Notes under the pieces: generated by a model | Database searches by the model: none | What the model was told of the DNA's origin: nothing | Seen by the model: the letters and a program-made list of their open reading frames with translations, nothing else | Shown: positions 36,350 through 48,206 of the stretch, in pieces | Position numbering within the stretch: the stretch's first letter is position 1 | Layout of the letters: each line of letters starts with the position of its first letter | NCBI RefSeq assembly: GCF_004359985.1 | Contig: NZ_SMRO01000001.1 | Coordinates: 1,054,001-1,118,000 of the forward strand | Reading direction: 5' to 3' | DNA length: 64,000 nucleotides | Source of the DNA: Paraburkholderia flava | GTDB lineage: Bacteria; Pseudomonadota; Gammaproteobacteria; Burkholderiales; Burkholderiaceae | Position numbers and translations under genes: made by a program

Positions 36350-38296
36350 TTAGTTCAGCTTCATCACCTCGATCACCTTTGCCACCGGCACCACCGGCAT
36401 GCTCACCGCTGTCCGGTCAAGATCGAGCGTGACCTGCGCGGTCCCCTGAAAACCCTCGAGCTTCAGTTCGATCTTGCTGCCCGGCAACACTGTAAAGTCG
36501 CGCGGCATCATTTCCAGAGAGAAGCTGTAGGTCGAGCCCGGCGTAATCGTTGCGATCTGATCGAGGCCTTTGTAGAAGCGCGGATTCGCCCAACCGTACG
36601 TGACAGGCGTACCGTCGACCGATAGCGTTGCCTTGATATTGGTCACCGCCGGCGAGAACTTCCCGTTCATCGTAATCATGATCGTGCCGGCATAGCGTGT
36701 TGCATTGGCAAGCGGCGCACTCTCATACGAAATGGGATGCGTGCTGTCAAAGCTGATCGCCTTACCATCGACTCCATCCGTCGTGCCCGGCGTGAACAAC
36801 CCTCCCTTCGTGCCGTCGCCGCGAAGATAGTACGGAACAGCCTGTGTTGCGGGCCATGCCTGCTCCTTCACGATGAGCTCGCCCGTCGGAATGCAGTCCC
36901 TCGGGTTATGACCGTCTTTGCAATGGCCGGTGAGCGTATCGTTGCTGTTGTCCGGATTGTTGCTCGTATCGCTGCCGCCGGTCGGTTTGTCGCCTGCGGG
37001 CGTTTCGCGCGCGTAGCTGGGCTGCGTCTCCACACCGTTATTCACGCCGAACAGATAGCGCGAATACCAGAGCAGCACCTCTTTCGCCCATTCCTTCTGC
37101 CAGACCGGATCGTCGTGGTTACGGCTATGCAGCCATAGCTGCACAGGCTTCTTCAGATTGTACAAAGCGTGATAGAGCTGCACGCCGTTCTTCGTCTTGA
37201 CGTTGTTGTCGTCCTGCCCTTGCGTGACCAGCGTAGCGGCCTTGATCCGATCGGCATGCGATACCGTATTGCGTGCCTTCCAGAAATCGTTGTAGGCGAG
37301 CGTCGTGTCGTCGGATTGTGTGGACAGTTCTTTATAGAATGGTGCACATGCTTTAGCAGTGCGCGTCGAGCTTTCCGCGGAAAGATAGTCGGTCAGACCA
37401 ATCGTTCCGATCACATCGGAGGTCACGCCGTTGTAGCGGAAATAGTCGTAGCCGTTGCTGATCCCCTCGACGGGAACAATCGCTTCCAGACCGGGCACGC
37501 CGGTGGCGGCAACCATCGAAGGCAGCGTGCCGCCGTATGAGATCCCTTCCATTGCGACGTGGTCGGTGGACCAGCTCGCGCTTAACGGATTACCTTTATC
37601 GTCGAACCCCGGTGCCGACTTGTCGCCGGTCAGCCAGCGAACGACCGCAGCCATTGCCTCACTCTCGGTCGAGTCCATTACCGACCAGCAGCCATCCGAC
37701 AGATTCGTACCGAGCGAATCCGCATAGATGACGGTAAAGCCCATCCGCACATATTCCTCCTCGCCGAGAAACGGCTCCCGCTCTTTCGTCGCGTAGTCAG
37801 GGTCCGCGTAATAGACAGAAGGCCTGACGATGACCGGCGTCTTCAACCCCTCGTCGACTTCAGCGGGCTGCACGATGCGCAGCGCGATGCGATCTTTCTT
37901 GCCGTCGTGGTCGGTATCGAACGACGTCTGCACCGTCGCGCTGAATTTCTTCGGCGCGCGCATCGAGAGCCATGGGAGCACCATGCCGTCGTCCACCGTA
38001 GGGCCGTTGTGCCCCGGGTACAGCGTGCTGAGCGCAGGGTAAGCGATGCCCGTCGGTGAGCTCGCAAACTGCGCGCCGACTCCGGGCGTCGGCACAGGCG
38101 GTTTGAACGGTGCGGGGTCGGGTGTCGTCGTCACCGTTTGAGGTGTCGCTGTGACAGCGCTGCTACTCGATGCATTGTTCGCCGCACCGGGCTGATCGTG
38201 TCCACCGCCGCACGCGGTGAGCGTCAACAGTGCGGCGAAGATCGATGCGAGGCTCTTTCGAGTCAGATACGGCGGTAGCCATTCTCGATGCTTCAT
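36350..38296 (-). CDS. S15-type (Xaa-Pro dipeptidyl-peptidase/CocE-like) lipoprotein peptidase
   Basis: The protein has 648 residues from MKHREWLPPYLT behind AGGAGGACAC. The signal ends in a lipobox, LLTLTACGGG. The alpha/beta-hydrolase core shows the nucleophile Ser253 in GISYGG, an Asp in TQGQDDNNV and a His in LHSRNHDDP, in the order of Xaa-Pro dipeptidyl peptidases. A C-terminal jelly-roll domain (about 510-640) resembles X-Pro dipeptidase C-domains. It should remove Xaa-Pro dipeptides or act on ester/amide bonds at the cell envelope. It is divergent from the S10 carboxypeptidase gene across 375 bp, suggesting shared control. Confidence 0.87.
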   Translation of the reverse strand: MKHREWLPPYLTRKSLASIFAALLTLTACGGGHDQPGAANNASSSSAVTATPQTVTTTPDPAPFKPPVPTPGVGAQFASSPTGIAYPALSTLYPGHNGPTVDDGMVLPWLSMRAPKKFSATVQTSFDTDHDGKKDRIALRIVQPAEVDEGLKTPVIVRPSVYYADPDYATKEREPFLGEEEYVRMGFTVIYADSLGTNLSDGCWSVMDSTESEAMAAVVRWLTGDKSAPGFDDKGNPLSASWSTDHVAMEGISYGGTLPSMVAATGVPGLEAIVPVEGISNGYDYFRYNGVTSDVIGTIGLTDYLSAESSTRTAKACAPFYKELSTQSDDTTLAYNDFWKARNTVSHADRIKAATLVTQGQDDNNVKTKNGVQLYHALYNLKKPVQLWLHSRNHDDPVWQKEWAKEVLLWYSRYLFGVNNGVETQPSYARETPAGDKPTGGSDTSNNPDNSNDTLTGHCKDGHNPRDCIPTGELIVKEQAWPATQAVPYYLRGDGTKGGLFTPGTTDGVDGKAISFDSTHPISYESAPLANATRYAGTIMITMNGKFSPAVTNIKATLSVDGTPVTYGWANPRFYKGLDQIATITPGSTYSFSLEMMPRDFTVLPGSKIELKLEGFQGTAQVTLDLDRTAVSMPVVPVAKVIEVMKLN

Positions 38297-38671
38297 GTGT
38301 CCTCCTGCGATAGCTTCTGGTTTTGTTGTCGTAGCGGCTGCAAAGCGACGGCGTATGCGCAATGCACGCTGGATCGTCAGCAGACCTGCAATGGTGTTAG
38401 ACGTATGGCGATCGACAAAGGACCAGGACAGCGGCGAAATATTTCTTTGGCGGCCGCTAAATCAGCGATACACGCACGTGTTCACTCGCACGCATCGCGT
38501 GAAGAAAATATTTTTTCGGAGCGACGGGTCCGTTCTCTCGCGGCACTCGTCTTTAGAGCACGACGCCATGACTGCGCAAACCGAGGCATGAGTCGTAGCC
38601 GGATGTCGGGTTACCTCACGGCTGCTGGAAACGCCGTTCACAAACAATTAACATCAATACGAGGTTCTGCA
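38297..38671. other. divergent peptidase intergenic region, 375 bp
   Basis: Region between the S15 (leftward) and S10 (rightward) peptidase genes. It is A/T-richer at 38440-38530 and 38635-38670, where the S10 promoter probably lies. Open frames crossing it (38288 onwards) are arginine-rich and not credible. No operator or repeat is recognised. Confidence 0.45.
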
Positions 38672-40417
38672 ATGGTCGACAGATTTATCTATGGCGCGCG
38701 GTACGGATGCATATTCAGCGTGGCTGTAGCGTTGCTGAGCGGATGCGGTGGTGACGACAAGATCTCGAGTCCCACCGAAAAAAGCGCATCGCCTGCATCG
38801 CCGGCTTCCAGCCCCGCGGCGCTATCCGATCAGCGCTATGCCGATCCCAATACGTACAGCAGCAATCCGAATGACTCGCTTCCATCGAACAGCGCATTCG
38901 ATCAGGCCGCCGTCACGCATCACACGATCACGCTCAACGGCAAGGCGATGAACTACACGGCAACGGCCGGGCATCTGACTGCCGTCGCGCCCAATGCCGA
39001 TAAGTCCAAGCCAGCCGACAACGAGGTCTCGTTTTTCTACGTGGCCTATACGCGCGACAACCAGCCGCTCGGCACGCGTCCGGTGACGTTCTTCTGGAAT
39101 GGCGGCCCGGGGTCGTCAACCATCTGGCTTCATCTGGGCTCGTGGGGGCCGAAGACGTTCCAGGTGGACGAGGCCAGCTTTACGCCGGATCAGTTGCAGA
39201 CACAGCCCACGAGCTTCCCGCTGGTCGACAACGACGTGAGCATGCTCGACGACACCGATCTGGTTTTTGTCGACGCGCCCGGCACCGGTTTTTCGGAAGC
39301 CATCGCGCCGCACAAGAACAAGGACTTCTGGGGCGTGGACCAGGACACCAAAGCGTTCCGCGATTTCATTGCGCGCTACATCGCGGTCAACAAACGGCAG
39401 ACGTCGCCCAAGTATCTGTACGGCGAATCGTACGGCGGTATCCGTACGCCGATCGTCGCGGATCTGCTCGAGCAGGCGGGAAGTCCAGGGCAAGGCGGGC
39501 CGGCTTTGACCGGCGTCATATTGAATTCGCCGATCCTGAGCTACAAGACGAATTGCGATATGTCCGGGGACGTGTCATGCGAAGGGTATGTGCCGACCTA
39601 CGGCGCGGTTGCGTACTCGAAGAAAGTGGCAACAGATCCTCTTGCGGCCAGTTCGACACTCCCCGACTACGTGAGTCAGATGAGATTCTATGTAGCGCAG
39701 TACTGGGCTCCCTCACTGGTGCCATACCTCTCTCTCCCCTACAAAGTGTGGGATCCGTCTACCGACACAAGCTCCCTTCCCAGCGATGTACAAGCTGTGA
39801 TCAAAACTGAACAGACTGTGTTCAGCGCACTCGCGGCAAAGACGGGTCTCACGACTGCAAACTGGGCCTTGAGCTTCAATATGCAACCCAGCGACTTTCA
39901 GTCTGACATGCTCACCCGGCTCGGGTTGGGAAGTGATTCCTCGCACATGGATCGCTACAACGGCATGGTCACCATTCCTGTGAGCGCGACATACGATGCG
40001 CAAAGCTATAACGATCTCGCGTTCCAGAACGAAATCACTGATTTCCTGCCGAGTTTCCTCGGGTACACGAGCAAGTCGAAATACGCTTTGGAGCCGAACG
40101 CCCCCATAAACATGTGGAACTGGAAGCACGGAACAGACAAGTCCAATCACCCCACCTCACTCCCCGATCTGACCGACGCACTGACGCTCGATCCAAAGCT
40201 GAAGGTGGTGGTGTTCCACGGTTATCACGATCTCGCCTGTCCGCTCCATCAAAGCGAGCTCGATCTGGGCGGCGCCGGTCTGGCTTCGACCGTACCCATC
40301 AAGGCATTTCCGGGCGGCCACATGATCTACCTGACCAAGGACTCACGGCAGCCGATGAAGCAGGCCATCGACAGTTTCTTTGGCACTGCATCGACGGCAA
40401 CTGTCGCCGCGCGCTAA
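38672..40417 (+). CDS. S10 serine carboxypeptidase lipoprotein (left copy)
   Basis: The protein has 581 residues from MVDRFIYGARYGC. Its lipobox LLSGC puts the lipidated Cys at residue 25. A Ser/Pro-rich linker (30-50) precedes the S10 domain. Substrate-binding FWNGGPGSS is at about 133-141, then nucleophile Ser253 in GESYGG, Asp520 in GYHDLACP and His550 in GGHMIYL. The reaction is removal of C-terminal residues, usually at acid pH, at the envelope surface. It has a clear paralogue at 45862-47733 with the same N-terminal plan. It is followed after 43 bp by an EF-hand-like protein gene. Confidence 0.9.
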   Translation: MVDRFIYGARYGCIFSVAVALLSGCGGDDKISSPTEKSASPASPASSPAALSDQRYADPNTYSSNPNDSLPSNSAFDQAAVTHHTITLNGKAMNYTATAGHLTAVAPNADKSKPADNEVSFFYVAYTRDNQPLGTRPVTFFWNGGPGSSTIWLHLGSWGPKTFQVDEASFTPDQLQTQPTSFPLVDNDVSMLDDTDLVFVDAPGTGFSEAIAPHKNKDFWGVDQDTKAFRDFIARYIAVNKRQTSPKYLYGESYGGIRTPIVADLLEQAGSPGQGGPALTGVILNSPILSYKTNCDMSGDVSCEGYVPTYGAVAYSKKVATDPLAASSTLPDYVSQMRFYVAQYWAPSLVPYLSLPYKVWDPSTDTSSLPSDVQAVIKTEQTVFSALAAKTGLTTANWALSFNMQPSDFQSDMLTRLGLGSDSSHMDRYNGMVTIPVSATYDAQSYNDLAFQNEITDFLPSFLGYTSKSKYALEPNAPINMWNWKHGTDKSNHPTSLPDLTDALTLDPKLKVVVFHGYHDLACPLHQSELDLGGAGLASTVPIKAFPGGHMIYLTKDSRQPMKQAIDSFFGTASTATVAAR

Positions 40418-40460
40418 AGAGCGCATCGATCCGGATCACTTCGATTGAAATGAGGCAACG

Positions 40461-40877
40461 ATGAAATTTCTTTGTGCAAAAACGATGCTGATCGTGACGG
40501 GGCTGATGGCGGCCTCTCTGGTCCAGGCAACTCAATACGGTGTTTCGACTGCGACCGACGGACAGGCGCCGGTACGCATGCTCAAGGTTGGAGACAGGCT
40601 TGTCACGCCGCCGCCCGACCCAGCCGGTACAGCCGTTCCAGAACCGCAGGGGCAAACGTTGAGGGATCAGGTAATCGCCAACATGAAGCGCCGCTTCGAC
40701 GCGGCAGCCGATCCGTCGACACATCTTCTGTCGCAGGCGGGAGCGAAGCAGGCGGGTCTCGGTTACGTCGCGGACCACTTCGGCGAAATCGATCGCTCAG
40801 GTGGTGGGTATATCAGCTTCGATGACCTCGAACGCTACCTCAGGCACAAAAACGGACCGGCATTCGCAGGGTCGTAA
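40461..40877 (+). CDS. exported EF-hand-like small protein (left copy)
   Basis: The protein has 138 residues with a signal peptide ending near VQAT (residue 24). A Pro-rich linker is followed by LRDQVIANMKRRFDAA and then two EF-hand-like segments. The first (ADPSTHLLSQAG) is degenerate. The second (DRSGGGYISFDD, then LERYL) keeps most calcium-loop positions: D1, S3, G6, I8, D12. It pairs with the S10 gene just upstream and resembles the protein at 45408-45809 in length, signal, linker and C-terminal plan. A calcium-dependent partner of the peptidase is possible but not shown. Confidence 0.7.
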   Translation: MKFLCAKTMLIVTGLMAASLVQATQYGVSTATDGQAPVRMLKVGDRLVTPPPDPAGTAVPEPQGQTLRDQVIANMKRRFDAAADPSTHLLSQAGAKQAGLGYVADHFGEIDRSGGGYISFDDLERYLRHKNGPAFAGS

Positions 40878-40900
40878 CGTACGCCTGTAGTCTAAGCACT

Positions 40901-40945
40901 GCCGATGCCATCGATAGGACAAAGCGTTCTATCGATGGCATCGGC
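40901..40945 (+). terminator. long hairpin after the left peptidase cassette
   Basis: GCCGATGCCATCGATAG (40901-40917) pairs perfectly with CTATCGATGGCATCGGC (40929-40945), a 17-bp stem with an 11-base loop, 23 bp past the stop codon. There is no T-run, so it may act as a factor-dependent or bidirectional terminator. Confidence 0.6.
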
Positions 40946-41068
40946 ACGTCCATATCGATCAATCGAACGCCGGGTGCCTCGGCAATATTCAACGTTCCTC
41001 AACAACGTCGTCTTTAGACAGTGATCTGGCAATTGCCTCTACTGCTGAATCTGGTCTTACACGAAATC

Positions 41069-41233
41069 GCTAAACATTTCCCGCCTCGACATAAATATGT
41101 TTAGCAACCCTGGTCATCATTGAGACAAAAAAACACACAGATACGCGGAATAAACGAAAAATCACGCCTTACAGGCGACCCGCTCCTGCTTGCGGCAGCG
41201 TTCCTTGACACCAAAATTCTTACCGCGTAAAAA
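41069..41233 (+). promoter_or_regulatory. control region of the sigma factor gene
   Basis: The 461-bp gap 40878-41338 is AT-rich. It holds a perfect 9-bp inverted repeat, GCTAAACAT (41069-41077) and ATGTTTAGC (41097-41105), and further on TTGACA (41205-41210), 17 bases, then TAAAAA (41228-41233), a sigma-70-like promoter. No Fur-box-like sequence was seen, though this type of system is often iron-controlled. Confidence 0.45.
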
Positions 41234-41338
41234 TCGGCCTCATTGATTTGATGTCACCTCCGTGTGCTAGTCACATGAAATTCGCATCTGAATATTCGCA
41301 TCTCAATCTGCGGTTTATTGCACTCGCTCGGAGTTACC

Positions 41339-41833
41339 TTGGCTAAGGGGCTTTTCGATGAACTGGTCAGCGGCTATTACGAGTTGAAGCGCGTGCTGAC
41401 GCGCGAACTCGATACCGATAACGCTGCCGACGTCGCGCAGTCATCGTTCGAACGGGCGCTGCGTTATGCGCAAAGCCATGAGGTACACTCGCCCCGTGGC
41501 CTGCTGTTCGGCATCGCACGTAATCTGCAGATCGACGGAGGCCGCCGCGTGTCCCGTGTGTCCTGGCGGTCAGTCGACGATACCGAAGACGATCTCGACC
41601 GGCTCGCCTACTCCGAACTTACGCCGGAGCGTTCGCTTGCGGGTCGCCAGACGGTCAACGAACTATGCGCGATCATCGATGCGCTGCCGCCCCGTTGCCG
41701 CGAAGCCTTCGTTCTCTGCAAACTGCATCACATGACTTATGAAGAAGCAGCCAACGAAATGGGCATCAGCCCCACGGTCATCCGCAAGTATCTGGTGCAG
41801 GCGATGCGCGAGTGTCGCGTCGTGCTTCGATAG
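41339..41833 (+). CDS. FecI-type ECF RNA polymerase sigma factor
   Basis: The protein has 164 residues if it starts at the TTG at 41339, six bases after GGAG, giving MAKGLFDELVSGYYELKRVL, a normal start for this group; a TTG seven codons earlier is possible. Sigma region 2 is about 5-70 (DNAADVAQSSFERAL, GLLFGIARNLQIDG). Region 4 is about 105-160 (LPPRCREAFVLCKLHHMTYEEAANEMGISPTVIRKYL, in pieces). It directs transcription of receptor genes after a signal from FecR. It is followed 42 bp later by fecR-like and receptor genes. Confidence 0.87.
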   Translation: MAKGLFDELVSGYYELKRVLTRELDTDNAADVAQSSFERALRYAQSHEVHSPRGLLFGIARNLQIDGGRRVSRVSWRSVDDTEDDLDRLAYSELTPERSLAGRQTVNELCAIIDALPPRCREAFVLCKLHHMTYEEAANEMGISPTVIRKYLVQAMRECRVVLR

Positions 41834-41875
41834 GCACTGTGTCGCGCGTGCATTGCTTCCCGGATCGCCGCGCCC

Positions 41876-42886
41876 ATGTCGTTGAACCAGTCCGAGCGCG
41901 ATCACGCCGACGATCTGTTTTCCTCCGCGCAGTTCGGCGATGCACAGCAAAAGAAAGCCGCGCTCGCGGCTATCGATACGTGGACCGCACAGATCCCGGA
42001 ACGGCTCGCTTATATCGCCGAACTTGAAACCGCCAATCGCGCGGTGGACAGCAACCTTGCTGCTTTACGCAGCCGCTATCCGCGGCAGCTCGACAATCGC
42101 ACGCCTGCGCCGAGCCAATCTGCGCGTGCCGTTCGCCTGTCCGGACTCTGGCCGGGCGTCGCACTCGCGTGCTGCGCGATGGCTATCACAGCCGTATGGG
42201 TCATCAATCCTGTGCAATCGCGGCAGGACATGTCTTCTTCGATCGGACAGCAAGCGTCTCTAGATCTCGAAGACGGAAGCCACGTGCTGCTCAACACGAA
42301 TACGGCAATTCGCTTCGTCAACCGGTTGCGCTCGCGGGAACTGACGCTTGAGCGGGGTGAAGCGCTCTTCTCGGTCAAGCACAGCGCGCTGCGCCCTTTT
42401 CACGTGTATGCGGGTACGGCCGAGATTCGCGATGTCGGTACGCAGTTCAGTGTCCGGCTGCTCGATGGTGCCGACGGTGTCAATGGTGCCGCTAACGGCG
42501 TAAGCGTGGCGGTACTCGAAGGACAGGTGTCGGTGACATCGTCCGCCAACACGCCACCCACGCTTTTGACCGCGCACGAAGCATTGCGCATGAACGGAAC
42601 CACTGTCGTGCCGGTCACCGGATCCGGGGCCGTGACCGCGATGCTCGACTGGACAAAGCGACGCCTCGATTTCGACGCGACCTCCATCAGCGACGTGATC
42701 GATGAATTGCAACGCTACCGGAAGCAGCCGATCGTACTCGCCGACAAACGCGCAGGCACGTTTCGCGTGACCGGTGGATTCTCGATTGCCGATCCGGACC
42801 AGTTGCTCAAGACGCTGCCGTCCGTCGCGCCCGTCACGGTCACGATGAAGCCGGACGGCACCGCCGTCGTCGCATCGCGCCGCTAG
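41876..42886 (+). CDS. FecR-type anti-sigma factor / sigma regulator
   Basis: The protein has 336 residues. An N-terminal cytoplasmic sigma-binding part (about 1-80, DUF4880-like, with WTAQIPERLAYIAELE) is followed by one membrane helix (about 88-108). The periplasmic FecR domain runs from about 125 to 225: QQASLDLEDGSHVLLNTNTAIRFV, LERGEALFSVKHSALRPFHVYAG and GTQFSVRLL. A C-terminal STN-like segment (FDATSISDVIDELQRYRKQPIVLAD) may contact the receptor's signalling domain. It relays ligand occupancy of the TonB-dependent receptor to the sigma factor. Confidence 0.9.
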   Translation: MSLNQSERDHADDLFSSAQFGDAQQKKAALAAIDTWTAQIPERLAYIAELETANRAVDSNLAALRSRYPRQLDNRTPAPSQSARAVRLSGLWPGVALACCAMAITAVWVINPVQSRQDMSSSIGQQASLDLEDGSHVLLNTNTAIRFVNRLRSRELTLERGEALFSVKHSALRPFHVYAGTAEIRDVGTQFSVRLLDGADGVNGAANGVSVAVLEGQVSVTSSANTPPTLLTAHEALRMNGTTVVPVTGSGAVTAMLDWTKRRLDFDATSISDVIDELQRYRKQPIVLADKRAGTFRVTGGFSIADPDQLLKTLPSVAPVTVTMKPDGTAVVASRR

Positions 42887-42940
42887 AACCTGACCACGAA
42901 CAAAAGCCTTTGACGCGTGCGATCCGGATGCGGATCGCCG

Positions 42941-45334
42941 ATGAAGCAGCATGCTGCCCGTCAACCCCAAGCCGCACGCGATCACTCGCGCCACGCATCG
43001 ATGAGACCGCGAATGACAGCCAGCAGGACGACGAAGCTGCTTGTGCGCTGCATGCTGGCGATGCTGCCAGGTATCGCGGCACATGCGCAGACGACCGTCG
43101 AGCTGCCGGCTCAATCGCTCGCGCTCTCTCTTTCGCAACTCGCGCGCGACGGCAACGTCAATATCCTCGCGCCGGCCGCGCTCACGGCGAATCATGATGC
43201 GCCCGCGTTGTCGGGCACGCTGACGCTCTCTCAAGCGATCGATCGTCTTTTGCAAGGCACAGGACTCACTGCGCAAAAACGCAACGAGAGCACGTACGTC
43301 ATCGAGCGATCGACCGCGCAGCCAGTCGCACCACCGCCCCTCGCTACCGCAGCTACAGAGGCCACCACGGTTCTACCGATGATCGCGGTGACCGCTCAAT
43401 CGGCAACCGAGGATCTGGGGTTTGCCGCTCAATCGTCATCGCTCGTCACACGAACGGACACACCCGTCGCGGACATTCCTCAATCGATCGAAATCCTCAC
43501 CGCAAAGACACTGGAAAGCCAGCAGGACCAATCCGTCCCGGATGCATTGCGTAACGTCAGCAGCGTCACGATCGAGCGCACGCAAACCTACACGACGCAC
43601 GGCACACCATACATCCGCGGATTTATGGCGCCGGTGCTGATCAACGGTCTGCCGATCGCGGTCACCCAGAGCGATATTCCTCTCTCGTTACCGGCAGTCG
43701 CGTTGTCGCGCGTGGAAGTGCTCAAGGGTGCCGATTCGATACTCGCCGGCAGCATGGATCCGGGCGGCATCGTCAACGTGGTGACGAAAAGCCCGCAGGC
43801 CGATCCGGTTCATCGGTTCACCGTGCAAACCGGATCATATGGCGACTGGCTAGGTTCGCTCGATCTGGCCGGCCCGATTCTGGACAATCGAAATCTGACA
43901 TACCGTTTCGTGATTTCCGCCGAACGTGCCGATCGAGATTTCATGGGCTACGACGGTCAACGCGACTTCTACGTCGCGCCGTCGATCGGCTGGCAGGATG
44001 CGCGCACGCGCCTCGTCGTCGGGTTCGAGCAGCACACGAGCCGCGTCCCTGTCGCGCCGACTTCGTTGCTTCTCCCGGGAGGACCGCTACAGTCTTCGTC
44101 GCCGCTAGGCCGTCCCGACGACGGCTTCATGTCGAACAGCACGTCGCTGTACTACGACTACACGCGCAAACTCGCCGGTTCGCTGACGTTCCACAGCAAG
44201 GCCCGGTACGACGCGACAAGACAGGATTTCAAGGCCTATGAGCTCACGCAACTCTCCGATACTCCGTCAGTCGGGCACTTCATCGCGCAGACCAATCATG
44301 TTCAGCAAAATCAGATCAGCCTCGACAACAATCTGCAGATGAAGGTCAACACGGGCCCGGTCAGACAAACGTTATTGGCAGGCTTCGCGTGGTCGTCGGA
44401 CCGGTACGCACAGACCCGTGGAACCGGGTTCACTGAAAGCGCTGCGCTTCCGTCGCCGCAGCTGCCGCCCATCGCGCTGCAGGGCATCACGGAGATGCCC
44501 GCCGAGACGGACACCCAGACCGTGCTCTACGTGCAGGATCAGATTGCATGGGGTCCCGTACGCGTGTTGCTTAACCTGACGCACAGCCGCATCTGGACGA
44601 CTCACGCGCTAACCGGTTCTTCATCGAACAGCGCGGGAAACTGGTCGCCGGGCATCGGCATCGCGTATCGGCTAACCGATGCGGTTACCGTCTACGCGAA
44701 CGCGACGCACAGCTTCCAGCCGCAGTACGCATTTCTCACGTTCGATGGACACGCATCGCCACCGAGAGTGGGCCACTCCGTCGAAGCCGGCGTGAAACTC
44801 GCGTTGCTGGACGACCGGCTTACCGCAACAGCAGCACTGTTCCGAAGCCGGCAAGCGGATTCCGCGCAGATCGATGTGGCTCATCCGGGCTTTTACGTCA
44901 TCTCGCCGAACTTCGCTTATCGCGGAGTTGAATTCGATATGACCGGACGCCTGTTGCCGGGCTGGAATGTCATTGCGAGCTATACCTACAGCAACCTGCA
45001 ATCTCCGGGCAACGAATGGGGGCAGTTGCCGACCCATGCGGCAAGCTTATGGACGACCTACGATTTCCAGGGCGAACCGCTACACGGATGGGGGACGGGT
45101 GTCGGCATATGGGCGCGCAGCCGTTATAGCGCGAGCGACAGTCAGGCAGCCATGCATCCGGTACCAGGTCAAGCCCGTACCGACGCCAGCGTCTATTACC
45201 GCGCTCGACGCTGGACGGCCACGTTGAGCGTAAAGAACGTCTTCAATCGCCGACTGTACGGCGATTACGCGTTGGGGAACGTAGAGCTGCAAGCGGGACG
45301 CCTCTTCTATCTGAGCAGCAGCTACGATTTTTGA
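42941..45334 (+). CDS. TonB-dependent siderophore-type receptor with STN signalling domain
   Basis: The protein has 797 residues from MKQHAARQ; MRPRMTAS at 43001 or MTASRTT at 43013 are alternative starts with a shorter signal region. A signal peptide ends near AAHAQ. An STN domain follows (VELPAQSLALSLSQLARDG to TYVIERS). A TonB-box-like VLPMIAVTAQS precedes the plug (TPVADIPQSIEIL, DALRNVSSVT, PYIRGF, DSILAGSMDPGGIVNVVTK). The 22-strand barrel ends in an aromatic residue (SSYDF), as outer-membrane barrels do. It is grouped with ferric-siderophore receptors, but the flanking peptidases leave a peptide-like ligand open. With the preceding genes it forms a cell-surface signalling unit. Confidence 0.9.
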   Translation: MKQHAARQPQAARDHSRHASMRPRMTASRTTKLLVRCMLAMLPGIAAHAQTTVELPAQSLALSLSQLARDGNVNILAPAALTANHDAPALSGTLTLSQAIDRLLQGTGLTAQKRNESTYVIERSTAQPVAPPPLATAATEATTVLPMIAVTAQSATEDLGFAAQSSSLVTRTDTPVADIPQSIEILTAKTLESQQDQSVPDALRNVSSVTIERTQTYTTHGTPYIRGFMAPVLINGLPIAVTQSDIPLSLPAVALSRVEVLKGADSILAGSMDPGGIVNVVTKSPQADPVHRFTVQTGSYGDWLGSLDLAGPILDNRNLTYRFVISAERADRDFMGYDGQRDFYVAPSIGWQDARTRLVVGFEQHTSRVPVAPTSLLLPGGPLQSSSPLGRPDDGFMSNSTSLYYDYTRKLAGSLTFHSKARYDATRQDFKAYELTQLSDTPSVGHFIAQTNHVQQNQISLDNNLQMKVNTGPVRQTLLAGFAWSSDRYAQTRGTGFTESAALPSPQLPPIALQGITEMPAETDTQTVLYVQDQIAWGPVRVLLNLTHSRIWTTHALTGSSSNSAGNWSPGIGIAYRLTDAVTVYANATHSFQPQYAFLTFDGHASPPRVGHSVEAGVKLALLDDRLTATAALFRSRQADSAQIDVAHPGFYVISPNFAYRGVEFDMTGRLLPGWNVIASYTYSNLQSPGNEWGQLPTHAASLWTTYDFQGEPLHGWGTGVGIWARSRYSASDSQAAMHPVPGQARTDASVYYRARRWTATLSVKNVFNRRLYGDYALGNVELQAGRLFYLSSSYDF

Positions 45335-45361
45335 ATCGATGGGGCGAAGCCCCGGCGACTG

Positions 45362-45389
45362 TCGTGTCCACGATGAATCGTGGACACGA
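45362..45389. terminator. bidirectional hairpin terminator
   Basis: TCGTGTCCACGA (45362-45373) and TCGTGGACACGA (45378-45389) form a perfect 12-bp stem with a TGAA loop between the convergent receptor and right EF-hand genes. Confidence 0.7.
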
Positions 45390-45407
45390 TCTATTTCGCT
45401 CGACGAA

Positions 45408-45809
45408 CTACCGCTGCAGATAGCGCCTGACATCGTCGAACGTCACCACCCCGCGCTTCCCGGTATCGATCTGCGCAAAATGCTTCGCGACGAAATTCAG
45501 GTTGTGCTGGCTGGCCTGCGCAGCCGTGATGGCTCCCGTGCCCGACGTATCCGCCACTTCGAACTTCTTGCGAAGATTGTCGAGCGCCTGATTGCGCAAC
45601 TCGGCACCGGATGCACGATGCAATGGCGCCTGGAGCTGAAAACCCGGCTGCGGAATCGGCGGATCGATATCCGACAGGTGAAGCTGCGGAGTCGGCGCAG
45701 GATTGGAGACCTGAGCCTGCGCCGTCTTGCCGACTACTGTCAGCCCGCTTGCCAGCATCATCGCCAGCAGAACGAATCGCGTCATACCGTTTGTACCTTG
45801 CATCACCAT
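45408..45809 (-). CDS. exported EF-hand-like small protein (right copy)
   Basis: The protein has 133 residues from the ATG at 45809, nine bases after GAAGGAG; MTRF at 45785 is possible. The signal peptide ends near KTAQAQ. A Pro-rich linker is followed by LRNQALDNLRKKFEVA and two EF-hand-like loops. The first is well kept (DTSGTGAITAAQ). The second (DTGKRGVVTFDD, then VRRYL) is poorer. It mirrors the left copy at 40461-40877, where the first loop is decayed and the second kept. It lies 52 bp behind the right S10 peptidase gene. Confidence 0.7.
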   Translation of the reverse strand: MVMQGTNGMTRFVLLAMMLASGLTVVGKTAQAQVSNPAPTPQLHLSDIDPPIPQPGFQLQAPLHRASGAELRNQALDNLRKKFEVADTSGTGAITAAQASQHNLNFVAKHFAQIDTGKRGVVTFDDVRRYLQR

Positions 45810-45861
45810 GTTGTCTTGCTCCTTCGATAAACAGTCTGTTGTCCGCGCGGCGATCCGCCGG

Positions 45862-47733
45862 TCAACGTTGTGCCGAAAGCAGATAGGCACCCTGAGCCGG
45901 GGATGCTGCCACTGCGCTACCCGGTACGGCAGGCACTGCCGTCAGTACGCCTGGTGTCTGGTAGAAATTCACCAGGTCCGTCTTCATCGGCGCACGCGAG
46001 GCTTCATTGAGGTAAATCATGTGGCCACCGTCATAGAACGTCGTGGTGAGGTTCGGCTGGGACCCGAGTCGGGCCAGCGAGGTCTCCGTTGCAAAAAGAG
46101 GGGTGGCCAGATCGTGATAGCCGTTCATCACCAGCACCTTGAGCGTCGGATTGAGCAGCAGTGCACTTTGCAGATCGGGCACGGTGTCCAGTACGCCGAA
46201 CGTGTTCGCGCCGCCGTCATGCGACCAGTTCCATGCACCGATGACCGAATTGCTAAGCTGGATATAGGTGGTCTGTGCGTTGGTGTACTTGAGGGTGCTC
46301 GCAAGATAGGCGGTTCCCTGCGGGCCAAACGTGCTCGTCATCTCGTCGGATGGATCGCCGTCGGCTTTCGCCCACGCACTGTTTGCGGGAACCTTCACGC
46401 GGCCATCGTAACGACCGATCAACTGGTCGGGGAGAAAGTTCTTTGCATATTTCTGACCCGTGCTAAGGCCGTTAATCGAGGTGAACGAGCCCGACGCGTT
46501 AACAAGAAAGTGCCTCGTTTGATAGGTAACGACATCAGCTGGCGAGACTCCGAAGGCTTTCAGACTGGCAGGATCATTGAATACGCCGGGGACGCGGAGA
46601 GCAGACAGCAGGCTGGACGAAAACCCATAGGGATTTTCCCAGACACCTGCCGCGATGCCGGTGTACTGGGCCAGCTGCGCGACCGTCGTTGCATCGTAGG
46701 CGGTGTATTGCGGATTCTGCACAAGCGGAACAAGCGTGTTGCCGGCATAACTCTGGACGTTGGTCACATAGGCTGCGAGCGATGGAACGGGAGGGACGAG
46801 CCCAAAATACGCGCCCACCGCAGCAAAGCTGGGCAAGAAGTAAGCGTCGGCATTCAGCGAATAGTCGGCGTTGTAGTCGAGACAGGCCGATTGCAGAACG
46901 ATGCCCGTCACAGGCGTTCCGTTTTCCTCCAGCAGGTTGACCAGAATGTCGGTGCGCGGTGTTCCATACGATTCACCGTAGAGATACAGAGGCGATTGTT
47001 GCCGCTTGTTGACCGACAGGTAACGCTGTACGAAACCTTCGAGTATGCGTCCATCCGGATCCGCACCCCAGAAGCTGCTATTGGTAGCCGGCGAGATCGC
47101 CTCCGAAAATCCGGTTCCCGGCGGATCGATGTACACCAGATCCGTCGTGTCGAGCAGGCTGTCCGTGCTACTGATCATCGGCAAGGTGGTCGGCAGCGTA
47201 TTGGGATCGCGCACGGCCGGAGCGTTTGTCACGATCCGTACAGGCGACCACGCCGCCATGTGCAGGAAGATCGAAGAGGCTCCTGGTCCGCCGTTGTAGG
47301 TGAACGTGACGGGACGCGAACCTGGGGGCACACCGTCGCGCGTGTAGGCTGTGTAGAAAATCGTCGCCTTGTTGCCGGTCGTCGGATCGGTCGCGACGAG
47401 ATGACCGGCGGTCGCCGTATAGCCAAGCGGGCCGCTGGGCAACGCGATCTGATGATGCGTGACCGCGGCGGCTTCGACGGCCTGGGCCGCCGGTATCGAG
47501 TCGCCGGCATTACCGGAGTAAGCGACAGGGTCGGCGTAAGCCTGATCGGCGAGCGCCGCAGGGGAACTGGCCGGTGCTGGCGTACCCGCAGCGGGCTGCT
47601 GGGGATTGCCCGGCGACTGATTCGAAACCGCACTGCCTGCGATCTTGTTGTCGCCGCCGCACCCCGCCAGCAACGAAACAAGTAGCCCTCCTACGCACCC
47701 GTAACGGGCACAACGAACCAGCACGCTGATCAT
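45862..47733 (-). CDS. S10 serine carboxypeptidase lipoprotein (right copy)
   Basis: The protein has 623 residues from MISVLVRCARYGC. The lipobox LLAGC again puts the lipidated Cys at residue 25, and the following GGDNKI echoes GGDDKI of the left copy. Catalytic residues are Ser255 (GESYGT), Asp541 (GYHDLATP) and His571 (GGHMIYL); the Asp-His spacing of 30 is identical to the left copy. The oxyanion motif is TYNGGPGASSIFLH. It is 42 residues longer than its paralogue, mainly in the middle insert. It is transcribed toward the receptor operon, the mirror image of the left cassette. Confidence 0.9.
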   Translation of the reverse strand: MISVLVRCARYGCVGGLLVSLLAGCGGDNKIAGSAVSNQSPGNPQQPAAGTPAPASSPAALADQAYADPVAYSGNAGDSIPAAQAVEAAAVTHHQIALPSGPLGYTATAGHLVATDPTTGNKATIFYTAYTRDGVPPGSRPVTFTYNGGPGASSIFLHMAAWSPVRIVTNAPAVRDPNTLPTTLPMISSTDSLLDTTDLVYIDPPGTGFSEAISPATNSSFWGADPDGRILEGFVQRYLSVNKRQQSPLYLYGESYGTPRTDILVNLLEENGTPVTGIVLQSACLDYNADYSLNADAYFLPSFAAVGAYFGLVPPVPSLAAYVTNVQSYAGNTLVPLVQNPQYTAYDATTVAQLAQYTGIAAGVWENPYGFSSSLLSALRVPGVFNDPASLKAFGVSPADVVTYQTRHFLVNASGSFTSINGLSTGQKYAKNFLPDQLIGRYDGRVKVPANSAWAKADGDPSDEMTSTFGPQGTAYLASTLKYTNAQTTYIQLSNSVIGAWNWSHDGGANTFGVLDTVPDLQSALLLNPTLKVLVMNGYHDLATPLFATETSLARLGSQPNLTTTFYDGGHMIYLNEASRAPMKTDLVNFYQTPGVLTAVPAVPGSAVAASPAQGAYLLSAQR

Positions 47734-48206
47734 TCCACATCCCCTTTTCTCTCGAGTACCTGAGCCTCTCGACCGCGCGCGTCACTGCGAGCGGCTCGTG
47801 AGCCATGTGATAACCGGCGTTCGTCGATGCTCCGGCAGCGCCCATTAGCGGGCCGCACCGGATCGCACGGTCTGCTGCTAAAGACGAACGCGATATGAAA
47901 AGAGACCAGTCCCACATGAAAATTTTCGCGACCTTCGACAATTCCCGGGTGGCTCGATCGTCGCTTCTGCGGTCAATCCAGGCGCCGCTCGTCGTTCGCG
48001 TACATCGCGTACTCGCGTGACACCGCAGTGCATGCCCGGCATATCTGCTCGAGCATCCCTTTCTTCATTATTCGAATTCCCCGACAGATGAATTCGCGCT
48101 GCCTTGCTTTATCCATGCAGCCGAAGTCCATAGGATTGACCCTGACAGAAAACCGGGACACGCCCGTTGCGTCGTACCCGGTTGCACGAACTTCAGGGAA
48201 TCTCCA
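47734..48206. other. divergent intergenic region, 473 bp
   Basis: Region between the right S10 gene (leftward) and an MFS pump (rightward). It contains a 9-bp inverted repeat, GCGTTCGTC (47817-47825) and GACGAACGC (47883-47891). A 31-codon minus-strand ORF (48068-47973, MKKGMLEQICRAC) has no clear ribosome site, and I do not call it a gene. Promoters for both flanking genes should lie here. Confidence 0.45.

Follow-up and report, generated by a model that had tools for sequence, protein, structure and literature searches.

A predicted FecI-type surface-signalling regulon of envelope peptidases in Paraburkholderia flava

Cell-surface signalling systems of the FecIRA type are mainly known from iron and heme uptake. 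Two other described systems bring peptides into contact with TonB-dependent uptake: lasso-peptide clusters combine an isopeptidase, a TonB transporter and a sigma/anti-sigma pair, according to excerpts of one source (PMC9266682), and the peptide microcin J25 is taken up via the siderophore receptor FhuA with TonB-ExbBD and SbmA, as stated in the consulted part of another (PMC6795089). The locus described here lies in a 64-kb stretch (the window) of the Paraburkholderia flava genome (G000, 6.97 Mb; G-numbers denote genomes and L-numbers loci) and combines genes for a FecI-type extracytoplasmic function (ECF) sigma factor, a FecR-type anti-sigma factor and a TonB-dependent receptor with genes for three envelope peptidases, one of family S15 and two of family S10 (S10A and S10B), the latter each followed by a gene for a small EF-hand-like partner (EF A and EF B). 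We consider it probable, at roughly 70% for the explanation as a whole and with details that may err, that FecI, FecR and the receptor form a surface-signalling system which has the envelope peptidases as its targets and senses a peptide. The features are, in window coordinates:

36350..38296, minus strand: S15 lipoprotein of the Xaa-Pro dipeptidyl-peptidase type (PF02129, 180 bits)
38396..38424, minus strand: predicted FecI-type promoter of S15 with a degenerate -10 element, CGTCTAAC (19.6 bits; matrix trained without window sites)
38527..38555, plus strand: predicted FecI-type promoter of S10A-EF A, GGTC-N17-CGTCTTTA (exact match; 29.9 bits)
38672..40417, plus strand: S10A, serine carboxypeptidase-like lipoprotein (PF00450, 60.6 bits)
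40461..40877, plus strand: EF-hand partner A, a small exported protein (family profile, alignment, Pfam and model)
40898..40949, plus strand: strong RNA hairpin between EF A and FecI (-50.8 kcal/mol, z -7.5)
41205..41234, plus strand: sigma-70-like promoter upstream of FecI (TTGACA match; recurs in G022 and G439)
41339..41833, plus strand: FecI-type ECF sigma factor (TIGR02937, 59.3 over a cut-off of 42.9; Pfam sigma region 4)
41876..42886, plus strand: FecR-type anti-sigma factor (PF04773, 64.3 bits over 24)
43013..45334, plus strand: TonB-dependent receptor with STN signalling domain (PF00593, PF07715, PF07660), its start codon picked by comparison with G022
45361..45390, both strands: hairpin in the intergenic stretch where the receptor and EF B genes converge (z -3.6 and -4.1)
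45408..45809, minus strand: EF-hand partner B (EF-hand_6, 26.8 bits; cut-off 25)
45862..47733, minus strand: S10B, serine carboxypeptidase-like lipoprotein of another S10 clade (PF00450, 40.1 bits; tree)
47879..47907, minus strand: predicted FecI-type promoter of S10B-EF B (exact match; 45.2 bits, the top site of the window)

Both S10+EF pairs face inward toward the FecI-FecR-receptor genes with the S10 genes outermost, and the S15 gene is divergent from the left pair. Coordinates and Pfam matches bear out this arrangement as given in the initial annotation, whose further idea of the mirror layout as a functional unit is not supported: the mirror image is not conserved and is seen in none of the genomes G022, G439 and G460. 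At the corresponding locus of G022 (L072), S15, S10A, EF A, FecI, FecR and the receptor follow one another in the same order with 79-96% identity, and S10B and EF B are missing. The identity of FecI amounts to 96% in G022 and 90% in G439 and G460, that of S15 to 89% and 82-83%, respectively.

The evidence that carries the proposed regulon is a promoter sequence shared among the peptidase genes. In a side-by-side reading of upstream regions, GGTC-N17-CGTCTTTA with an A/T-rich stretch upstream of it was found before S10A (in G000 and G022) and before S10B. Comparing the upstream regions in ungapped 60-base windows, S10B and the S10A of G022 are identical at 40 of 60 positions, which none of 200 random sequences of matched dinucleotide make-up equalled, and S10A and S10B at 34 of 60 (2/200 as good); in each of the 25 pairs that bring in the upstream region of one of the five other S10 genes, 17 or more of the 200 random sequences were as good. 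The exact pattern exists in two copies in the whole 6.97-Mb genome, one before each S10+EF cassette. Because the pattern was derived from these two sites, independent evidence for the promoter must come from elsewhere. Exact matches outside the pattern definition are present in P. acidicola (G439), where L136 contributes three (upstream of S15 and of two S10 genes) and L138 a fourth, upstream of another S10 gene, as well as in G022 at the position orthologous to the S15 promoter of the window.

A matrix of 79 bases was built from 16 sites, none of them from G000 and one S10 site of G460 being absent from the set. Within the window it ranks S10B first (45.2 bits), followed by S10A (29.9) and S15 (19.6), with the next position at -1.2. 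S10B is the strongest test, since the training set holds no site orthologous to it, whereas S10A and S15 have orthologous sites there. Of 184 S10/S15 places, 178 were scored (six with less than 200 bases of upstream sequence were dropped, and the same gene may recur across loci); 29 of them reach 19.6 or more, all in G000, G022, G439 and G460, and represent 13 distinct genes, nine of which supplied training sites, the held-out ones being three of G000 and one S10 of G460. The other 149 places score 1.0 or less, and no promoter site was found at the five other S10 genes of G000 or at P. acidicola L164. Control genomes without a FecI match at E 1e-25 gave -14.1 for the S10A orthologue in Burkholderia sp. 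TSV86 (78% identity), -4.6 for S15 and -25.5 for S10 at B. arboris L139, -12.2 and -21.0 for the S10 of P. mimosarum at L140 and L153 (the latter taken as belonging to the genome of L140), and -11.6 or less for S15 and S10 of Variovorax L144. S15, S10A-EF A and S10B-EF B are with high likelihood under shared control.

Across the genus, the pattern is matched in 30 of 144 genomes; in 22 of these, a single sequence that recurs with slight variation makes up the match or part of it, and in L240 and L258 this sequence lies inside a called coding frame with a start that by eye looks response-regulator-like. Lone pattern matches occur in six further genomes (G112, G463, G465, G253, G021 and G504), and lone one-mismatch matches in L072, L120 and L080 were treated as background.

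Concerning the tie between promoter and sigma factor, FecI with at least 90% identity occurs in four of the 144 genus genomes (G000, G022, G439 and G460), and these same four are the ones in which sites were found at S10/S15 genes, the six lone pattern matches elsewhere being left aside; two further genus genomes carry FecI at E 1e-40 with 55-58% identity. In G439 and G460, FecI, FecR and the receptor (90, 68 and 63% identity) are situated at a locus unlinked to the peptidase genes. There, FecI is preceded at a distance of 1.1-1.2 kb by an exact site, which in G439 stands ahead of a short GntR-type gene, and the thioredoxin-fusion gene following the receptor has a site with one mismatch. The S15 and S10 genes of both genomes have sites at their own loci, exact except for the S15 of G460 (one mismatch). 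Where a close FecI orthologue is present, the predicted promoter thus links it with the peptidases even at separate loci. The initial annotation would have counted independent occurrence of the S10 lipoprotein, its EF-hand-like partner and the receptor system in relatives, with no conserved neighbourhood, as a refutation. The answer is mixed: S10+EF pairs and S15-S10-EF trios are found where the receptor is absent, as is the receptor where S10 is absent, yet FecI and the peptidases come together at the level of this promoter.

A wider scan, with G000 and G349 taken out of the training set, covered 13 loci (L124 and L126-L135 lie outside it). Its best sites stand upstream of the receptor gene in L116 (11.0 bits), L117 (5.9), L118 (36.1) and L119 (15.3), all in genomes that carry a FecI of 57-61% identity. 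L121, L122, L123 and L125, with no FecI or with another FecI type, score -1.9 or less, a glycosidase locus (L073) -2.9 and a metallopeptidase-like locus (L074) 0.6. The sharing of the promoter and its co-occurrence with FecI are observations, from which we infer that FecI recognizes it. Given both, it is very probable that a single sigma regulon takes in the two S10+EF cassettes, and S15 is likewise a predicted member of it.

Several points weigh against FecI as the reader of these promoters. The window genes for FecI and the receptor have no matrix site above background upstream; L120, from a genome with a FecI of 54% identity, has no site (-0.8), and neither have the FecI loci L281 (-1.6) and L282 (-7.1). 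With one mismatch allowed, the 12-base pattern yields 21 matches genome-wide versus 27 for the reversed control; it was rejected as a genome-wide finder, and only the longer motif carries weight, since the short pattern is no commoner than its control. Furthermore, the four genomes are related, such that FecI and the sites may be common to them by descent. The shared promoter could on this account be real, yet be read by another sigma factor, with FecI linked to it by descent alone, as the relatedness of the genomes and the missing motif at the window FecI and receptor and at L281 and L282 would allow. Against such a reader stand the sites that G439 and G460 have ahead of FecI and of the thioredoxin-fusion gene, those before the receptors of distant genomes with a FecI of this clade (L116-L119), and the low scores (-1.9 at most) of the four receptor loci with no FecI or another type. 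We regard another sigma factor as unlikely and retain FecI as the predicted reader.

FecI, FecR and the receptor themselves are probably transcribed from a sigma-70-like promoter. A scan for sigma-70 promoters found no matches upstream of FecI above those of shuffled sequences; the call relies on a similar TTGACA-type sequence that recurs at the corresponding position of G022 and G439, not on the scan score. The hairpin between EF A and FecI has a counterpart in G022 at the same place with different letters (z -3.8; 1/200 shuffles as good), and the hairpins after EF A and between the receptor and EF B fit with separate transcription units.

The receptor contains barrel, plug and STN domains (PF07660, 39.8 over 28.4) and is found at E 1e-75 in 26 of 398 family genomes, G000 included. 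Among the 20 loci of receptor relatives examined, out of 30 matches outside G000 and G022, an SbmA-like ABC gene is situated nearby in 19, ExbB in 18 and TldD and/or TldE in 17, and Pfam searches on representative relatives confirmed TonB, ExbB, ExbD, thioredoxin, TldD, TldE and SbmA_BacA. At the edge of one of the loci, L125, there is an S10-like gene. TonB-ExbBD, SbmA-like and TldDE genes are absent beside the receptor at the window locus and at L072; elsewhere in the G000 genome, one PF05992 gene and two PF19289 genes exist. With SbmA-like and TldD/TldE genes in the operons of most of the relatives examined, the receptor is best read as having a substrate of the peptide type, and its ligand, considered by itself, is more probably a peptide than not. 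Two of these loci show peculiarities of their own: L119 (2463-17000) contains what looks like a tandem duplication of the receptor-TonB-ExbBD-thioredoxin-TldD operon, broken in part, and L116 (3296-6413) a 445-aa thioredoxin fusion next to the SbmA-like gene, of which Pfam sees only the N-terminal thioredoxin domain.

This same receptor passes the NCBIfam model TIGR01783 ("siderophore receptor"; 273.7 over 223.5) and resembles models of the FhuA/FoxA type, and FecIRA-like systems are described foremost for iron uptake, at least in the portion of the source drawn on (PMC12772443). Both would be expected of ordinary iron-siderophore surface signalling, with the peptidase genes as bystanders. The position of the shared promoter before the peptidase genes does not fit with bystanders, nor does the SbmA-like gene in 19 of the 20 relative loci with a purely iron-related receptor. 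Moreover, no Fur box stood out above shuffles upstream of FecI in five loci, where 61 to 300 of 300 shuffles were as good; the best match in the window, 12/19, was equalled by 103 of 300, and Fur control of FecI was rejected as unsupported. Iron-siderophore signalling is for these reasons improbable. The initial annotation had suggested sensing or uptake of a peptide or peptide-siderophore: the peptide part is supported by the SbmA/TldDE kinship, whereas the siderophore part is not, as no Fur box exceeds shuffles, although TIGR01783 is passed.

Not all kin of the receptor stand with peptide genes, since a paralogue in G000 (44-45% identity) adjoins GH95 and GH27 glycosidase genes, which, like the GH27-like gene upstream of one S10 gene in P. 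acidicola, would suit scavenging of glycans or glycopeptides by a receptor that imports a sugar-bearing ligand. Neither the locus of this paralogue (L073) nor that of the P. acidicola S10 (L164) has the promoter, however, and no glycosidase is among the identified genes with sites, so that we give glycan scavenging little credence, the least of the alternatives considered, and keep to a peptide ligand. At L073 (9151-18397), the paralogous FecI-FecR-receptor set is divergent from the GH95 and GH27 genes. At L074 (5885-12728), a receptor relative is convergent with a HEWGH lipoprotein gene (metallopeptidase-like, by eye) and a gene for a small exported protein.

Concerning the predicted target enzymes, enzymes of family S15 cut off Xaa-Pro dipeptides. 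The S15 protein of the window exceeds the cut-offs of both PF02129 and PF08530 and misses the narrower model NF003782 (653 bits; cut-off 711). S10A and S10B score 60.6 and 40.1, respectively, against a Pfam cut-off of 21.9. Cys25, the following stretch (GGDDKI or GGDNKI) and a spacing of 30 residues between catalytic Asp and His are common to both in their sequences, exactly as first annotated, and the Ser/Asp/His triad (S253, D520 and H550 of S10A) is invariant in all 24 aligned S10 proteins; the enzymes are presumed to be active. With the AlphaFold model of S10A (mean predicted local distance difference test score 84.7), Foldseek returned cathepsin A, KEX1 and carboxypeptidase Y, and a sequence search against solved structures at E 0.001 returned KEX1 as the sole match. 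In the tree, S10A and S10B fall into separate clades with a split support of 100/98, therefore they are not the result of a recent local duplication, and a mirror-image duplication was ruled out. In comparison with G439 and G460, the 5' part of S10B is more S10A-like than its body, not cleanly so, as another S10 is equally alike in one bin.

Taken singly, EF partner A gives a weak match to EF-hand_6 (E 0.0021, below cut-off), a profile that 36 of 45 aligned partners match at E 0.01. Its AlphaFold model contains the helices of an EF-hand-like pair (residues 64-135), and the top Foldseek matches are EF-hand proteins, though with E-values of 0.1 or more; a strict calcium-binding loop pattern is fitted by 19 of 66 partners. 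Of the seven S10 genes in the G000 genome, six have a small exported EF-hand-like protein encoded directly downstream, and the small gene beside the seventh (L008) has no similarity to the partners and no Pfam match. With the profile of the partner family, a partner was found after 66 of 97 S10 places in 76 loci (fragments and contig ends counted in), among which the pair ranges over Burkholderiales, Phyllobacterium, Inquilinus and one Holophagaceae metagenome-assembled genome. The S10+EF pair is thus a general cassette that is not special to the window locus. The partner is presumed to work with its S10 enzyme; a receptor-specific role of the partner was rejected, as such pairs are also found away from the receptor. 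Since S15 adjoins S10 also in L136, L139, L140, L144 and L153, S15-S10-EF is a recurring trio. No paper was returned from an open-licence library when S10 or (serine) carboxypeptidase was combined with EF-hand, FecI, ECF sigma or TonB.

The cassette further occurs in several other settings. At L081 (6752-10957), and likewise at L083 and L084, a gene with a pro-kumamolisin activation domain (sedolisin-type) is situated directly upstream of an S10+EF pair. Two further S10+EF pairs of G000 point outward from a stretch of about 5.5 kb (L009, 4159-14050), the reverse of a mirror image facing inward, and in L151 and L202 (Phyllobacterium) several S10 genes or pieces are arranged in tandem, some of them with EF partners.

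Additional promoter sites were found near genes for exporters. In P. acidicola (L275, 9634-14709), a HlyD gene has an exact site 141 bp ahead of it and is followed by genes for a C39-peptidase ABC exporter and an outer-membrane efflux protein, together a predicted type I peptide export operon. In G460 (L277, 1023-6484), an exact site is located around 560 bp upstream of an open reading frame of 202 aa, followed by one of 1424 aa, both without clear Pfam match, and then by a C39-peptidase ABC gene (G460:C3:2257898-2259910). These sites raise the thought of peptide export within the same putative regulon. They are also compatible with a special case of the explanation preferred here, a competition system with an antimicrobial or self-made peptide as ligand and with peptidases that give protection from it or recycle it, and to which the handling of microcins by SbmA and TldD/E, described in the consulted part of PMC6795089, would lend itself. 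No precursor peptide is tied to any site, though, and the exporter link is confined to two genomes, the G000 window having no such site; a role in competition is for now a tentative thought. A further C39-peptidase ABC exporter gene (L280, 3130-5581), about 10 kb from the S15/S10 cluster of P. acidicola, stands beside a 60-aa open reading frame with a leader that is double-glycine-like by eye and with no Pfam match.

In the surface signalling that we prefer, an external ligand, most likely a peptide, would dock on the TonB-dependent receptor, the STN domain of which would signal inward through FecR and so free FecI. FecI would then guide RNA polymerase to the GGTC-N17-CGTCTTTA promoters, which precede S15 as well as S10A-EF A and S10B-EF B. 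The lipoproteins thereby induced, a putative Xaa-Pro dipeptidyl-peptidase and two putative serine carboxypeptidases, each of the latter with its EF-hand partner, might trim or degrade the peptide in the envelope and in this way serve feeding, detoxification or removal of the signal. Concerning the history of the system, the distribution of sites suggests that FecI of this clade may first have driven a peptide-import operon and later turned to peptidases. Drawn together, and only as a speculative picture, the system could be a FecIRA-type regulon that senses an external, perhaps self-made, peptide across the envelope, with ancestral control of an importer (receptor, TonB-ExbBD, SbmA-like protein, thioredoxin fusion and TldDE) that was rewired to S10/S15 peptidases with EF partners in four Paraburkholderia species and, in two of these, also to C39-type exporter operons.

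As defined from sequence, the predicted regulon connects envelope peptidases with a FecIRA-type system, and peptide handling of the SbmA/TldDE type with the receptor family of that system; it offers a testable case of a bacterium that may sense peptides via a TonB receptor. Gained along with it are a promoter usable for searches and a widespread S10/EF-hand gene pair.

Compared with peptidase family S10 (carboxypeptidase Y, KEX1 and cathepsin A), the window S10 proteins share the fold and the catalytic triad, whereas they are bacterial lipoproteins with an adjacent EF-hand protein. The SbmA and TldD/TldE system for uptake and processing of microcins, as far as set out in the consulted part of PMC6795089, is resembled by most receptor relatives, which lie in operons with SbmA/BacA-like, TonB-ExbBD and TldD/E genes, whereas the window locus carries none of these genes. 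With lasso-peptide isopeptidase clusters, as the excerpts of PMC9266682 present them, the window has in common a receptor, a sigma/anti-sigma pair and a peptide-cutting enzyme, with S10/S15 envelope lipoproteins in place of the isopeptidase. The organization resembles cell-surface signalling of the FecIRA, HasISR and PupIRB kind, in that an ECF sigma factor, a FecR anti-sigma factor and a TonB receptor with STN domain are clustered; a sigma promoter before the receptor, present in L116-L119 and not at the window, is not required for membership in the FecIRA type. Unlike in these systems, no Fur box was found at the window, FecI lies behind a sigma-70-like promoter, and the predicted targets are S15 and S10 peptidases.

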